DNA of 64,000 nt from Verrucomicrobiota bacterium (GTDB lineage: Bacteria; Verrucomicrobiota; Lentisphaeria; Oligosphaerales; Oligosphaeraceae). How positions within the stretch are numbered: the stretch's first letter is position 1; every line of letters starts with the position of its first letter. The translations under genes and the position numbers were made by a program. The notes under the pieces are model-generated. The model did no database searches and was not told the DNA's origin. It was given only the letters and a program-made list of their open reading frames with translations. Location: NCBI GenBank assembly GCA_019136135.1, contig JAGVUR010000084.1:1-64000 (forward strand), given 5' to 3'. This document shows, in pieces, positions 3,819 through 61,022 of the stretch.

Positions 3819-4110
3819 TGAATGCTGAATGCTGAATGCTGAATGCTGAATGCTGAATGCTGAATGTCCTATCCGACCTGTCCGACCCGTCCGACCTGTC
3901 CGACCTGTCCGACCTGTCCGACCTGTCCGACCCGTCCGACCCGTCCGACCCGTCCGACCCGTCCGACCCGTCCGACCTGTCCGACCTGTCCGACCTGTCC
4001 GACCTGTCCGACCTGTCCGACCTGTCCGACCTGTCCGACCTGTCCGACCTGTCCGACCTGTCCGAGGGGCATGTCACATGTATTTTAAGTACGAAAGCGT
4101 GAAAAAATCG
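3819..4110. repeat. Composite repeat: 7-mers, decamers, inverted box
   Basis: Seven-base units TGAATGC run from about 3819 to 3866. They are followed by roughly twenty 10-bp units (CCTGTCCGAC and CCCGTCCGAC mixed) to about 4065. An inverted copy of a conserved box follows at 4066-4110, containing CATGTCACATG and AGTACGAAAGCGTG. The box matches, in reverse complement, those at 38984, 39099, 48865 and 49058. The array opens reading frames in all six frames, but these are low-complexity artefacts. Confidence 0.93.
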
Positions 4111-21422: not shown

Positions 21423-21563
<141 letters not shown>

Positions 21564-21606: not shown

Positions 21607-24600
21607 TTACTTTTTCTCAAGGAAAAAATACGCGAGATTGAGTGAGATTCCCTTGGCGTTAACCATCTTAAGCGTGTTCTTTCCAGCATTGAGTGGAAGC
21701 GTTGCACTCCTGGCGACTGACCATTGCTCTTCCTCTAGTCCAAAGCCGCCGGTCGAGGCAAATATGATTTCGCCAATACTCTTGCCATTGACTTCGAGAG
21801 TTCTTGCCGAATTGTCTTTGGCGGCATAGACCCAGGCGATGGCATAGTTTCCAGTAGCTGGCACGACAATTTCCCAGGTCAATGCGTGCCCTTCCTTGTC
21901 CCAACCCGCAACGCATCCGTCCACCGCAATCGGACGACCATCGGCAACAAAGACCTCGCCGCCAGATTGGGATACAAAGGACTTCGCAGGAAGAAGACGA
22001 TCCGCAGGAAGAATCGGCAACACCTTAAGCGGCGTCACATAGAACCTGCCAGACAAGGCAGAACCATCGTCACGAGACAAGGTCGCGGGGATGTGAACCG
22101 CCTGGGAAACCGAGCCGTAAAGCGAGATGTCGACAACCTTTACCTCGCCGGGCTTCAAGTCAACCGAAAACTCGGCAGGCTCGAAGGACAAGCCCGGAGC
22201 CTCGGACGACTTGCCAATCGTCACGGTTCCCTTCAACGGCGCGTGACGGGATGCCGACATCGCGACCTGGCAATGGCGGGCAGACTTCATCGTCAGGCTG
22301 AAGTTGTCTGACTCGATTGATGGCAGATACGGCAAATCCGGGACATGGTAGTAGCCCTGGGAACCATTGAGCGCACTGGTCCTGTACGAATGTTCCTGCA
22401 TCAAGGCCACACGTCTATCCATCGCAGGATGCGGAGTCGAATACACGCGGACTTCGCCAGGAAGCCATGTGACGATTTCCTCGCGCCAATCACCGTACAG
22501 GTCGCAAACAGCAATGACACGCCCCTCGATCGTTCCATCCAATGCGCGTCCGAAATAGTCCTTGACATTCCTGCCAGCAACCGCTTCCTTTTCAAGGTCG
22601 GCATCCCAATAGACGCTCCTTGAGTTGCTGATGTTTTTCGTGTCGATAACCTCCCCCTTGCAGGAGAAAATCTTCCGCCAGAATTCCTTCCGACCATGCA
22701 TTTCGACTGCGAGGAGTTCGGTGCCGGGGCGAGTCGGGTCGAAATCAGCGCATGTTCCGGCTCCGACGTGGGTGGTCGGCTCCCCCCAACCCCAAAGCAC
22801 CTTGCCGGTCCTTGCATCGACGACGCAGATGCCGTTCTTCGGTTGCGGAGTCTCGATGCAGTAGGCGATTTCCATGCCGGGGTTGTCCGGATCGTGGTCG
22901 GAAAGGTGCATCACGTCGGGATGCCCGAGTCCCGTTGTCCACAGGACGGTTCCGTTGTCGTCAAGCGCCATGGATCCCAGCAGGATTTCGTCCTTCCCGT
23001 CTCCGTCCAGGTCGGCGACAATCGTCGAGTGCGCCCCTTGTCCCTGATATTCTTTCGGGAGTCCGACATTGTCGAACATCCAAACGTTTTCGAGCTTCCC
23101 GTTATTGAGTTGCCAGGCTTCCGCCTTCATCAGGCTATAGGTTCCCCTTAGTGCGATCAGGCATGGGGTCTTGCCATCAAGGTATGCCATTGAGAGTTGG
23201 TTTCGCGACACCAGGTTGTAGTTGGCAAACCCCTCTCTGGAAGGCCAAGGCGCGCGGGCGATCTCCTTGGCCGTCATCCCGTCCAGGACCACCAGGAATT
23301 CATCGCCGGAGATCACGTGCCCTTCAGGCGTCCTGGGATCGCCGTCGGCATACTTCATCGCAATTTCCGCCTTCCCGTCGCCATCAAAATCATAGACGAC
23401 GAACGGGGAGTACCAGACTCCCGTTTCGTTTCCCCAGCCCATCGACTTGGTCCAGAGATGGGTACCATCCGACTTGAATGCCTCCAGGTGGTAGGGGGTC
23501 TTGCTGGGATACCAGTACGCATCCCAGGGATCGATGTTCGTGCCGGGAGTCTTGAAAACGAAGTCGTACTCCCCATCGCCATCCAAGTCGCCGATCCCGA
23601 CGTGGTTGAAGGTTGACATCTCCGGATCCTTGAATTTGAAGGACTTGTAGCCTGCTTCCCAGACCTTGCCCGTGCCCGACTTGCCGGATTGCCCTGCCGA
23701 CGGCCTGACCGTGTATGTGTCGCCCGCCTTGCCATTGGGGTCGAACCAGTCGCAGGTGGCCGCTATCGGCGCCGAATTGAGTTTCTCCTCTCCCTTGAAA
23801 ACATCGAAGGAGGCATTTGGGGGATCTTCCCGCAGGAGCCGCCAGGTGACCAGAACTCCCTCGCCCGAGGGTATCGGCGTGACGGATCTGCCCAGCGGCT
23901 CGATCACGCGTGTTTTTGCGGCGCCGTCAAACGGGGTCGAACGACCACGTACCTTTGGTGGAGCAAGAAGCACGTATTCCACATAGGCGGGACCATCATT
24001 CCCCCTGTACGGGCGAAGCCATACGTCAACCGATTTGCCCTTGACGTCATTGGCGACGGTTGCCAGGTAACGAACCTTGGAAAACTTTTCCCCGTCCATG
24101 GAAATTTCCACGTTCCTGCGGCATTGCAGCGCAACCTGGTACGCAGCATCATCAGGAACATCGATCGTCAGCTTGCCGGTTCCCTGTCCGTCCTTGATGC
24201 TCTCGAAGCCGCGAACCTGGTCGATCGGAATCCTGGTTCCTACTTCCTTGAAGGGGAAGTTGACCTTTGGGTTCGGGGTTGTGCCCATCTTCTTTTCATC
24301 GGCGGAAGGCGAGACGGTAAAGCAGTCGATGTAGGAATTTCCGCATTCCGAGGGGTCTTCGTCATGGGCAAAGCAATTGGAGACGACGACATCGATGAAC
24401 CCGTCTTTTGCCTTGACATCCTTGTAGTTTGCCGACCAGGTGACCCTGTCGAAGGTCTTACCGCCGTCCAGCGAGACTCCGATTGTCCTCGCCGCCTTGA
24501 CATGGAGCGTGTTTACCGGGTCTTTTGCGGGAATCCTGAACTCGATTGGGAAAGCCTCCGGACTCATCGGATCGAGATCCTTGGTGACGACCGCTCCGCG

Positions 24601-24792
24601 GACGACATTTCCGCCGCCGGACCAGGAACGGTTCACGTCCGTCTCCCAGAAATCCCAGCCTCGGTAATTGGCAGGACGCGGACCGCGAAGGAGCTTCTTC
24701 TGGTCAACCACGACGGCTTCCGCCTCATAGACAACTTGCGCAAGGCAAACAACGCAACCCAGCAATGCCAAAACCAACAGGATTCTCTTCAT
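21607..24792 (-). CDS. Secreted rhamnogalacturonan lyase (PL11) with C-terminal module
   Basis: The 1061-residue protein has a signal peptide (MKRILLVLALLGCVVCLAQ) and two N-terminal CBM-like beta domains (about 20-280). The PL11 rhamnogalacturonan lyase core runs from about 290 to 850. It is an eight-bladed propeller with repeated calcium-binding DxDxDG loops (GDLDGDGEYDF, YDFDGDGKAEI, ADLDGDGKDEI) and family segments WGNETGVWYSPF, GTNIDPWDAYWYP and ALMQEHSYRTS. PL11 enzymes cleave the rhamnose-galacturonate backbone of pectin by beta-elimination. A further galactose-binding-like module (about 930-1061) ends the chain. AAGGAG lies nine bases before the ATG. This is the clearest indicator that the region targets pectin. 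Confidence 0.93.
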   Translation of the reverse strand: MKRILLVLALLGCVVCLAQVVYEAEAVVVDQKKLLRGPRPANYRGWDFWETDVNRSWSGGGNVVRGAVVTKDLDPMSPEAFPIEFRIPAKDPVNTLHVKAARTIGVSLDGGKTFDRVTWSANYKDVKAKDGFIDVVVSNCFAHDEDPSECGNSYIDCFTVSPSADEKKMGTTPNPKVNFPFKEVGTRIPIDQVRGFESIKDGQGTGKLTIDVPDDAAYQVALQCRRNVEISMDGEKFSKVRYLATVANDVKGKSVDVWLRPYRGNDGPAYVEYVLLAPPKVRGRSTPFDGAAKTRVIEPLGRSVTPIPSGEGVLVTWRLLREDPPNASFDVFKGEEKLNSAPIAATCDWFDPNGKAGDTYTVRPSAGQSGKSGTGKVWEAGYKSFKFKDPEMSTFNHVGIGDLDGDGEYDFVFKTPGTNIDPWDAYWYPSKTPYHLEAFKSDGTHLWTKSMGWGNETGVWYSPFVVYDFDGDGKAEIAMKYADGDPRTPEGHVISGDEFLVVLDGMTAKEIARAPWPSREGFANYNLVSRNQLSMAYLDGKTPCLIALRGTYSLMKAEAWQLNNGKLENVWMFDNVGLPKEYQGQGAHSTIVADLDGDGKDEILLGSMALDDNGTVLWTTGLGHPDVMHLSDHDPDNPGMEIAYCIETPQPKNGICVVDARTGKVLWGWGEPTTHVGAGTCADFDPTRPGTELLAVEMHGRKEFWRKIFSCKGEVIDTKNISNSRSVYWDADLEKEAVAGRNVKDYFGRALDGTIEGRVIAVCDLYGDWREEIVTWLPGEVRVYSTPHPAMDRRVALMQEHSYRTSALNGSQGYYHVPDLPYLPSIESDNFSLTMKSARHCQVAMSASRHAPLKGTVTIGKSSEAPGLSFEPAEFSVDLKPGEVKVVDISLYGSVSQAVHIPATLSRDDGSALSGRFYVTPLKVLPILPADRLLPAKSFVSQSGGEVFVADGRPIAVDGCVAGWDKEGHALTWEIVVPATGNYAIAWVYAAKDNSARTLEVNGKSIGEIIFASTGGFGLEEEQWSVARSATLPLNAGKNTLKMVNAKGISLNLAYFFLEKK

Positions 24793-24847
24793 CTTTCACA
24801 TCTCCTTGATTGGATTATCCTAAAAAAAGCAGTTGACACCTTATGAT

Positions 24848-25128
24848 TGTAGTGCCTTTACAAGGCACGGTCTCCGGTGGTTTTCCCGCCCCAGGCTAAA
24901 AGCCTGGGGTTAAGCATCGTTAAGCGCTTGCAGCGCAATGCATTATGCAAATCCTTACGGCAAGTCCGAACTATCGTCCGTCCCTAGCCCATGTCTCGCC
25001 CGTGTGGATTGCGGACGGCTGGTCCTCGCCAAAGACTTTGCGCCGTAGGCGCCTCACCATGCTTAACCCCGGGCTTCAGCCCGGGGACAGGATGCCCCCC
25101 ATGCCGGGCGCCTTGTAAAGGCGCTACA
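24848..25128. mobile_element. BIME/MITE-like element with two inverted triple-hairpin halves
   Basis: The ends are 21-bp inverted repeats with two mismatches (TGTAGTGCC on the left, TGTAGCGCC on the right strand). Each half contains three hairpins in mirrored order: hairpin 1 at the end, hairpin 2 at 24889-24909 and 25067-25086, hairpin 3 at 24924-24936 and 25040-25052. The motif TTAAGCAT joins hairpins 2 and 3. Differences between halves are compensatory, so each stem stays perfect. There is no coding sequence. The GTAG before hairpin 1 recalls REP sequences mobilised by RAYT transposases, but no such transposase is in the window. Confidence 0.8.
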
Positions 25129-25241
25129 GAAGACTGACGCACTTCAACTCACCAGCATCGTAAAATGAATAAACTTTCTAACTACTTGATAATCAGTCAA
25201 TTGAGAATCAAGTCCAGCTTCAACTTCTTTTTTTGGGATTA

Positions 25242-26135
25242 TTAGAACAGGCTTTCGCAAAATTCCCTTTCGGTGCAGTTATCGATTCTTGCCTCGGCGA
25301 GGAATTCGTCTCCGGCCTGGTTTCCCCAGGAATAGGTCACATAGAGACCATCCTTCCACTCACAGAAGTCCATGTCCGAGTTGTTGATGTTCTTTGCGCC
25401 GAGGATGTATGTTCGTTCGTCCTCCGTAAAGTCGCCCTTGATGACCCTGTCGTCACCGTCAGCTTCCAAAATCGGGAACTTTGGGGTCAGCGTCCAATTG
25501 ACCAGGTCTTTTGATCGTGCCGCCGACTGGCGGAAACCCTCGGAATATGTACCATGCAAATAGAAGAAATAGGTCCAGTCCCCAAAGCGTCGAATCGCGG
25601 GACCGCCCGTGTAAAACTCCTTTCCGAACACGGCTCCCGGCACCGGCTCCCACTCGCCCATATCCTTTGAACGGGCGAAAAACATGGTAAAGGGCACGCC
25701 AACCAAGTCTTTTGGCGCACCGAGTTCGTAGGTCAACAGGAAGCCGTCCCCTTCCCTGCATATCGATGTGTTGTAGCCCTGCCAACCTTCGCCCTCCAGA
25801 ATCACGCGGGGCGACGTCCAGTTGACAAGGTCAGTCGATTCCAACTGGTAAAACCTGGGCATTCCCCAGTGCTCGACCGCCGTGACGACCATTCGGCCTT
25901 CCCATGAAAACGCATTGCCCATATGAAGGCCAAAGCCGAAAGGAGCGCTCAACTCGCCGCTTTCAACGTCAACAAAGCGAAAATACGAATCTCCCGTATG
26001 ATTGAAACGATAGTGGCGACCATCTCGCATGTGGCGGATGTACTCGAAACGAAGAAGACGACCATTGAACACGACCGGATTCGCTTCGACGATGAACAAG
26101 TCTATCGTACCTTGCTTGCGTATGCAATACTTCAT
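25242..26135 (-). CDS. GH43/GH32-like five-bladed propeller glycosidase-like protein
   Basis: The 297-residue protein shows the repeated pattern of five-bladed beta-propeller glycosidases (families 32, 43, 62, 68, 130). Examples are YQLESTDLVNWTSPRVIL, FFARSKDMGEWEPVPGAVF and ARSKDLVNWTLTPKFPILE. It has no signal peptide and would act in the cytoplasm on imported oligosaccharides. FIVEANPVVFNG near the start could supply one acidic residue and FTEDERTYILG another, but I cannot assign a triad with confidence. The start chosen is the ATG at 26135 because GGAG lies seven bases upstream; a longer frame adds eight residues. It follows the pectin lyase gene in orientation but is separated by the hairpin element. 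Confidence 0.78.
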   Translation of the reverse strand: MKYCIRKQGTIDLFIVEANPVVFNGRLLRFEYIRHMRDGRHYRFNHTGDSYFRFVDVESGELSAPFGFGLHMGNAFSWEGRMVVTAVEHWGMPRFYQLESTDLVNWTSPRVILEGEGWQGYNTSICREGDGFLLTYELGAPKDLVGVPFTMFFARSKDMGEWEPVPGAVFGKEFYTGGPAIRRFGDWTYFFYLHGTYSEGFRQSAARSKDLVNWTLTPKFPILEADGDDRVIKGDFTEDERTYILGAKNINNSDMDFCEWKDGLYVTYSWGNQAGDEFLAEARIDNCTEREFCESLF

Positions 26136-26328
26136 TGGAAAACTCCATTTCAGGGTCAATTACGCTCGGAAAATAAAACAATATCCCGCTCAAGGGCAAT
26201 TGTCAACTTGCAGATTGCCAACAATTAAAGAACTGATGACTTGAAAACCCCAAGTGAACAAGCCACATTTACCCAAATGCAATTTTTTGAACCTCCTTCC
26301 AAACAAGCAACCAAGAGGAAACAACACC

Positions 26329-38983: not shown

Positions 38984-39145
38984 ATTTTTTCACACTTTCG
39001 TACTCAAAACCCATGTGACATGCATTTTGAATGATGAATGATGAATGACCCGTCCGACCCGTCCGACCCGTCCGACCTGTCCGACTTCTCCCAGAATCAT
39101 TTTTCCACACTTTCGTACTCAAAACCCATGTGACATGCCCCCTGA
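38984..39145. repeat. Composite repeat: box, 7-mers, decamers, box
   Basis: A box at 38984-39023 (CACACTTTCGTACTC then CATGTGACATGC) is followed by three TGAATGA units, then four decamers (CCCGTCCGAC type, 39049-39085). A second box in the same orientation follows at 39099-39138. Both boxes agree at nearly every base and match those at 48865 and 49058. Another TGAATGC-like remnant (TTCAGCATTCATAATT) lies at about 39192-39207. Confidence 0.92.
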
Positions 39146-48864: not shown

Positions 48865-49106
48865 ATTTTTTCACACTTTCGTACTCAAATACCATGTGAC
48901 ATGCATTTTGAATTATGAATGATGAATGATCTGTCCGACCCGACCGACCCGACCGACCCGACCGACCCGACCGACCCGTCCGACCCGTCCGGCCCGTCCG
49001 ACCTGTCCGACCCGTCCGACCCGTCCGACCCGTCCGACCGTCCGACTTCTCCCAGACTCATTTTTTCACACTTTCGTACTCAAAAACCATGTGACATGCC
49101 CCCTGA
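48865..49106. repeat. Composite repeat: box, 7-mers, 9/10-mers, box
   Basis: A box (48865-48904) is followed by a few TGAATGA units with changes and then an array. The array starts with 9-bp units (CCGACCCGA type, about 48937-48976) and switches to 10-bp units (CCCGTCCGAC, with one CCGG variant) to about 49046. A second box in the same orientation follows (49058-49099). It fills most of the gap between the beta-helix gene and the dehydrogenase gene. Confidence 0.92.
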
Positions 49107-60880: not shown

Positions 60881-61022
60881 AAAATTCACCGGTTTCGTAT
60901 TCAAAATGCACGTGACATGCCTCATTTTTTGGGTTTGAAGGTTATGGGACTGGGACAGGCCGGACGGGGTCGGACGGGGTCGGACGGGTCGGGCGGGTCA
61001 TTCAGCATTCAGCATTCATAAT
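60881..61022. repeat. Composite repeat, inverted layout
   Basis: A diverged box (TTTCGTATTCAAAA and CACGTGACATGCC, about 60893-60921) is followed by TTATGGGACTGGGACA. Three to four decamers on the opposite strand (CGGACGGGGT) come next, then inverted 7-mers (CATTCAG units) to about 61022. The order is the mirror image of the copy at 3819-4110. It occupies most of the gap between 60803 and the next gene. Confidence 0.88.

Follow-up and report, generated by a model that had tools for sequence, protein, structure and literature searches.

REP-like units inside an IS1380-type MITE: a hairpin array of an Oligosphaeraceae genome as two very probably nested kinds of mobile DNA

What is an array of mirrored hairpins that stands between two genes of a Verrucomicrobiota bacterium (Lentisphaeria; Oligosphaeraceae), and as part of what element did it come to be there? 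The array spans 281 bp (24848-25128) of the window, the whole stretch of 64,000 nucleotides that was analysed (contig JAGVUR010000084.1, positions 1 to 64,000), and the initial annotation had described it as a BIME-like element with three hairpins in each half, the outer one following GTAG as in REP sequences that are substrates of RAYT transposases. All three mirrored pairs of hairpins are present where they were described, and the extent given for them holds for the core; the full element is a 419-bp transposable element (24819-25237). We consider it very probable that two nested kinds of mobile DNA are combined here, a REP-like unit cognate to Y1 transposases of subclass 1.2 and, enclosing it, an IS1380-type MITE. 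The element is present once in the window and has the following parts.

24814-24818, no strand: left TSD copy, ATTAT, a perfect 5 bp; a single ATTAT at the empty site
24819-25237, no strand: whole element, a 419-bp MITE with an inverted pair of three-hairpin REP-like units, delimited by TIRs, near-constant length and an empty site
24819-24836, plus strand: left TIR, 18 bp, CCTAAAAAAAGCAGTTGA, exact
24848-24939, plus strand: REP-like unit, left copy, with GTAG foot and three hairpins
24852-24868, plus strand: hairpin H1 of the left unit, GTGCCTT-TAC-AAGGCAC
24889-24909, plus strand: hairpin H2 of the left unit, CCCCAGGCT-AAA-AGCCTGGGG
24924-24936, plus strand: hairpin H3 of the left unit, GCGCT-TGC-AGCGC
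24940-25036, no strand: MITE centre between the units, resembling the longer tails of solo units of the same genome (..ACGGACGATAGTTCGGAC..; L302-L304)
25037-25128, minus strand: REP-like unit, right copy, inverted; the GTAG feet of the pair point outwards
25040-25052, minus strand: hairpin H3 of the right unit, GCGCC/GGCGC
25067-25086, minus strand: hairpin H2 of the right unit, CCCCGGGCT/AGCCCGGGG
25108-25124, minus strand: hairpin H1 of the right unit, GCGCCTT/AAGGCGC
25129-25219, no strand: MITE right arm, about 80% homologous to the type-A end of an autonomous IS1380-type element
25220-25237, minus strand: right TIR, degenerate in the window copy (TCAACTTCTTTTTTTGGG; TTTCAACTGCTTTTTTTAGG in the majority of copies), from the alignment of copies
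25238-25242, no strand: right TSD copy, ATTAT, a perfect 5 bp; a single ATTAT at the empty site

Both neighbouring genes lie on the minus strand: a 1061-aa rhamnogalacturonan lyase of family 11 (21607-24792), 26 bp ahead of whose start codon the MITE begins, and a 305-aa gene without a Pfam match (25242-26159), whose stop codon is overlapped by the right TSD. These two genes are adjacent in a sister species (G003), and the window flanks, joined with one ATTAT between them, align with that genome over 237 columns, gapless and at 94% identity. The window copy is thus an insertion without a counterpart in the sister species, and the borders of the inserted 419 bp coincide exactly with the TIRs and the TSD. 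The pair of filled and empty loci is a clean natural experiment on whether the element affects the adjoining gene for polysaccharide degradation.

Further copies in the same genome, a check named in the initial annotation, are numerous: this genome (G000; 4.74 Mb, 217 contigs, 88% complete) holds at least about 40 more, full or partial, at 81-98% identity. Aligned with wider flanks, the copies have common sequence past the hairpins as far as the TIR, CCTAAAAAAAGCAGTTGA on the left and TTTCAACTGCTTTTTTTAGG on the right. Most of the 24 copies compared by length measure 404-420 bp, next to a long-arm variant of 511-524 bp and one copy of 373 bp; a perfect 5-bp TSD stands beside the TIRs in 11 of the 24, versus 6.9% of mismatched pairs, and repeats of 3, 4, 6, 7 or 8 bp showed no comparable excess in these copies. 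With up to three mismatches, the TIR CCTAAAAAAAGCAGTTGA has about 180 matches in the genome, versus 5 for a reversed control pattern, and the interiors of other elements with these TIRs differ from that of the window MITE. Portions of a different REP type, resembling that of a gene of the sister species (L106), occur within two such elements (L054 and L057), and some (L042, L055) enclose short-period arrays similar to the 9-bp arrays of the window listed at the end. At L032 (G000:C109:444-1647), two same-strand TIR matches flank part of an IS200-type Y1 gene that has a relative on contig C19 (L031).

A likely partner for these copies is found through their ends. About 15 contig ends of G000 terminate approximately 91 bp inside the TIR, as expected of an unassembled high-copy element, and they are of two types, A and B. 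Both end types occur in the sister species 1789 bp apart around a gene for a 500-aa transposase (G003:C89:21556-23344), the type-B end being identical and the type-A end 96% identical to the contig-end sequences of G000. This transposase matches Pfam PF13701 (DDE_Tnp_1_4) with 66.7 bits (cut-off 34.7), and its best NCBIfam match is the IS1380 model NF033539, with 118.9 bits and below the strict cut-off of 180. Since this element and the MITE have the TIR CCTAAAAAAAGCAGTTGA and the right arm in common, the whole array is to be read as a MITE and not as a BIME. Of the BIME-like label, the REP-like character of the halves stands and its extension to the whole array falls, the borders of the 419 bp being TIRs with a 5-bp TSD and not REPs. 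IS1380-type elements have short TSDs, of 4-5 bp; the TIRs shared with the autonomous element, the short TSD, the IS1380-family partner transposase, and the small size of the window copy, which has no transposase gene of its own, all agree with a MITE of this family. Judging from the shared ends, the IS1380-type enzyme is most likely what moves the MITE in trans. Like other IS1380-family MITEs, it has a full-length counterpart with a DDE_Tnp_1_4 domain, a TIR that starts with CC, a short TSD and a replaced internal region; unlike them, its interior is a pair of REP units and the transposase is divergent from the NCBIfam model. An IS1380 fragment on contig C50 of G000 was rejected as partner, having no TIR nearby and lying where the contig ends inside the gene. 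At L140 (G003:C89, after position 2045), the autonomous element directly adjoins MITE interior sequence, apparently through insertion into a copy of the MITE; the arrangement on contig C99 of G000 (L084) looks similar.

Each half of the array is a unit of about 92 nt, in the order GTRG foot, hairpin, spacer, hairpin, TTAAGCATGGT linker and hairpin. The stem differences between halves had been called compensatory, and they are, with one compensated base pair of difference per helix. Both halves fold better than 200 of 200 dinucleotide shuffles (z of -4.3 and -3.6), and the H1 pattern was found in none of 100 shuffles of the window. Covariation was then assessed on 31 aligned units drawn from 12 genomes; 13 of the units are from the genus of the window (related by descent) and 18 from ten other genomes. 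The three helices are 98.5% paired in this alignment, with double changes in 9 of 21 pairs and covariation in all three; none of 500 shuffles was as good, and slid controls were 28-48% paired. The covariation originally read from two halves is thereby borne out on the larger set, as is the view of the halves as GTAG-footed, high-copy REP-like units: 26 of the 31 have a GTRG foot, and the other five have GTTG, GTAA, GGTG or ATAG. With known REPs the half unit shares the GTAG or GTGG foot at the base of a hairpin; it departs from them in having three hairpins over about 92 nt where a REP has a single short hairpin of 20-40 nt.

The units extend well beyond the MITE. Among 149 genomes searched (the own genome and relatives), the full 422-bp query was matched entire only in G000 and G003, and in ten other genomes of Oligosphaeraceae (Lentisphaerota) the match was confined to the half unit (about 92 nt), the TIRs of the window MITE being absent. 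The covariance model that had been suggested as a check finds (E <= 0.01) 124 units in G000, 91 in G003, 149 in G007, 72 in G008, 122 in G011 and at least 150 in G020, a REP-like abundance of 72 to at least 150 per genome in six genomes, and 4-29 in three other species of the window's genus. G000 itself also has solo units outside TIR elements (L302-L304), whose longer tails match the MITE centre. IS200-type enzymes favour the lagging-strand template; the single units of the complete genome G011 have no replication-strand bias (32 of 69). In that genome, one and the same sequence (..CATTGATAACCAAAA) precedes most of the single units read (L323-L330), and next after them comes a unit of the different type found at the Y1 gene in L104, so that two REP types form mosaics.

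Which enzyme, then, would be cognate to the unit? The exact three-hairpin unit is joined to a Y1 (HUH) transposase gene at one locus, in G020 (C637, L102), where the gene for a 152-aa Y1 is preceded by one unit in inverted orientation and followed by units in direct orientation, the nearest about 10 bp past the stop codon; inverted copies thus surround a low-copy Y1 gene of the same genome, as they do for REPs. Six further Y1 genes (in G011, G008, G001, G002, G003 and another of G020) have flanks of the same architecture in other sequences, namely foot, hairpin, spacer, long hairpin, linker (GGTTA.GCATGGT in several) and hairpin; this order was read by eye, and contig ends cut some of the flanks short. 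The Y1 proteins of L102, L104, L098, L103 and L105, of about 150 aa, bear the signature Y---Q--HH, which is that of TnpA_Y1 subclass 1.2 (Quentin 2018, PMC6006769), a subclass for which that paper lists no REPs and, as a rule, no terminal IS200 structures; by this signature, the Y1 accompanying the units would belong to subclass 1.2. The unit-linked Y1 scores 70 bits with the IS200 model NF033573 (cut-off 55) and 24.2 bits with the RAYT model NF047646 (cut-off 80), and the NCBIfam assignment of the unit-linked and architecture-sharing proteins alike is to the IS200/IS605 family, the RAYT model being below cut-off or unmatched. The RAYT link of the initial annotation thus survives as a Y1 gene between inverted units in G020, and not as a RAYT. 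The Y1 gene with flanking units that it proposed to look for exists in G020 and not in G000, whose own Y1 genes (the C19 gene and a C109 fragment) are IS200-type, have no units nearby and were rejected as partners. A subclass-1.2 Y1 gene was not found in G000 (88% complete), whose units therefore look like orphans that may have lost the Y1 route of movement.

The association seems to hold for subclass 1.2 in general. Among 80 further Y1 loci from other genomes, 72 genes could be delimited and 71 of these carry the subclass 1.2 signature. Inverted repeats span the gene within 600 bp in 54 of 70 testable cases, versus 21 of 150 mismatched pairs, and the flanks fold strongly (median z of -2.8 for the 140 nt downstream and -2.5 upstream, versus -0.2 for a control 1.4 kb away), with a mean of 1.76 strong stems per downstream flank versus 0.19 in the control. 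Perfect stems of at least 6 bp number three or more in only 16 of the 71 downstream flanks, and the complete set of three hairpins may therefore not belong to every gene. In six Chryseobacterium genomes, a unit taken from one matched 1-15 places in each. On the sequence evidence, subclass 1.2 would accordingly be a class of enzymes tied to multi-hairpin repeats.

This arrangement also bears on the possibility that the hairpins act as RNA, as a paired terminator, an attenuator or an mRNA-stabilizing structure kept for its effect on a neighbouring gene. REPs affect termination and mRNA stability, and the element stands between two same-strand genes and just ahead of a start codon. Against such a role, an Rfam scan of the window returned two tRNAs only and no match at the element, its presence at the site differs between sister species, and the arrangement of units around Y1 genes points to DNA transposition; we regard an RNA role as unlikely.

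Inverted unit pairs recur inside other MITEs. Among the 103 strong units of the complete genome G011 are 15 inverted pairs whose GTRG feet face each other, as they do around the Y1 gene; the spacer measures about 61 bp in ten pairs and about 186 bp in five. Of the ten short-spacer pairs, nine were re-fetched; TIRs AATGTGCGAAATCTTGTGAT enclose every one of them, and the tenth has these TIRs as well. This MITE (L312-L320, L281) measures about 390-433 bp and has flanking repeats of 8-9 bp in several copies; its GTAAT ends and 8-9 bp TSD recall IS66, by an analogy that is our presumption. The long-spacer pairs that were read lie between CTGGAGTTTGGCA repeats and are inserted at palindromes present on both sides, as if this MITE targeted REP hairpins. 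At L255, L263 and L275, a 17-bp palindrome of another REP type (such as GCACGCTTTCAGCGTGC) stands on either side of the CTGGAGTTTGGCA MITE. Neither AATGTGCGAAATCTTGTGAT nor CTGGAGTTTGGCA resembles the IS1380-type TIR. Inverted unit pairs sit in at least three unrelated MITEs, and since the feet point outwards in the window MITE and inwards in G011, the captures look independent.

Such recurrence weighs on another reading, by which the element would be an ordinary IS1380 MITE filled with unrelated sequence, with hairpins that are incidental and have no function. The element does behave as a MITE, and the interiors of other TIR elements of G000 do differ; yet the units occur in high copy number outside these TIRs in other genera, where they covary and flank a Y1 gene, and their inverted pairs recur in two other MITEs, which makes incidental hairpins very improbable. 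Least credible of all is a plain BIME or REPIN, an inverted REP pair moved by a RAYT alone, which would account for the GTAG foot, the inverted pair, the high copy number and the Y1 association in a relative, and which is refuted for the whole element by an empty site exactly at the TIR borders, besides the TIRs outside the hairpins, the near-constant 419-bp length, the 5-bp TSD, the ends in common with an IS1380-type element and the cognate Y1 gene not found in G000.

We therefore favour nested mobile DNA, for which the following course of events can be envisioned. A single-domain Y1 (HUH) transposase of TnpA subclass 1.2, whose gene stands between inverted units in REPtron-like loci, would have the half unit as its cognate. 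By analogy with TnpA_REP and IS608, this enzyme probably recognizes the GTRG foot and one or more hairpins on single-stranded DNA, and it would probably copy or move units in trans. Within the window's genus, one lineage would have come to carry an inverted unit pair as the interior of an IS1380-type MITE; the DDE transposase, which we infer from the shared ends to be responsible for the observed insertion, would act on the TIRs, move the 419-bp package and duplicate 5 bp of AT-rich target. The compensated changes between the halves would stem from two REP subtypes, whose hairpins selection for recognition had preserved; continued selection on them within the MITE is possible and is not required by this explanation. 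One hairpin repeat would then have two likely transposition routes, through single-stranded DNA by the Y1 enzyme and through double-stranded DNA by the IS1380-type enzyme, and adoption by MITEs bears on how REPs persist and spread in genomes without a detected cognate Y1 gene.

With REP/RAYT (TnpA_REP) systems, REPtrons and BIMEs/REPINs (PMC2817692, PMC6006769, PMC8266576), the units share a GTRG foot with a covarying hairpin, tens to hundreds of dispersed copies and inverted copies around a low-copy Y1 gene. They differ from these in that a unit comprises three separate hairpins spread across about 92 nt, where a REP has one of 20-40 nt; the Y1, unlike a RAYT, has a single domain, scores with the IS200 family and carries Y---Q--HH. 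It agrees with TnpA_Y1 subclass 1.2 (PMC6006769) in its length of about 150 aa, the D-H-hydrophobic-H and Y---Q--HH motifs, low copy number and occurrence in Bacteroidetes; unlike the published subclass, for which REP is given as 'no', inverted repeats flank 54 of 70 genes, often in multi-hairpin folds, and Lentisphaerota are added to its host range. A MITE containing a GTAG REP has a precedent in QMITE2 of Coxiella (PMC5896051), which likewise is a TIR/TSD element with an internal GTAG REP and whose truncated copies resemble REPs; the window MITE differs in its pair of three-hairpin units, the identified DDE partner, the linked Y1 family and the capture by at least three unrelated MITEs. In a limited search, PMC6006769 was the only paper found on subclass 1.2 or on REPIN/RAYT in Bacteroidetes. 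Three features are new compared with the papers found: a unit of three hairpins, its link with subclass 1.2 Y1 proteins, and the fact that unrelated MITEs have captured it repeatedly. It seems fairly probable that subclass 1.2 and multi-hairpin REP units form a distinct and widespread class of REPtron (in Lentisphaerota and Bacteroidota) whose inverted pairs have repeatedly been adopted by unrelated DDE MITEs, with two independent routes of spread. The units would supply a candidate substrate for a transposase subclass catalogued without one, making its activity directly testable.

Other repeats of the window are tandem arrays. Arrays of a 9-bp repeat (CCTGTCCGA/GTCCGACCC), with up to 22 copies, occupy 1-109, 3868-4065, 39047-39085, 48933-49046 and 60953-60999, and two perfect 7-bp arrays consist of 6.9 copies of TGAATGC (3819-3866) and 9 copies of TGAATGA (21441-21503).
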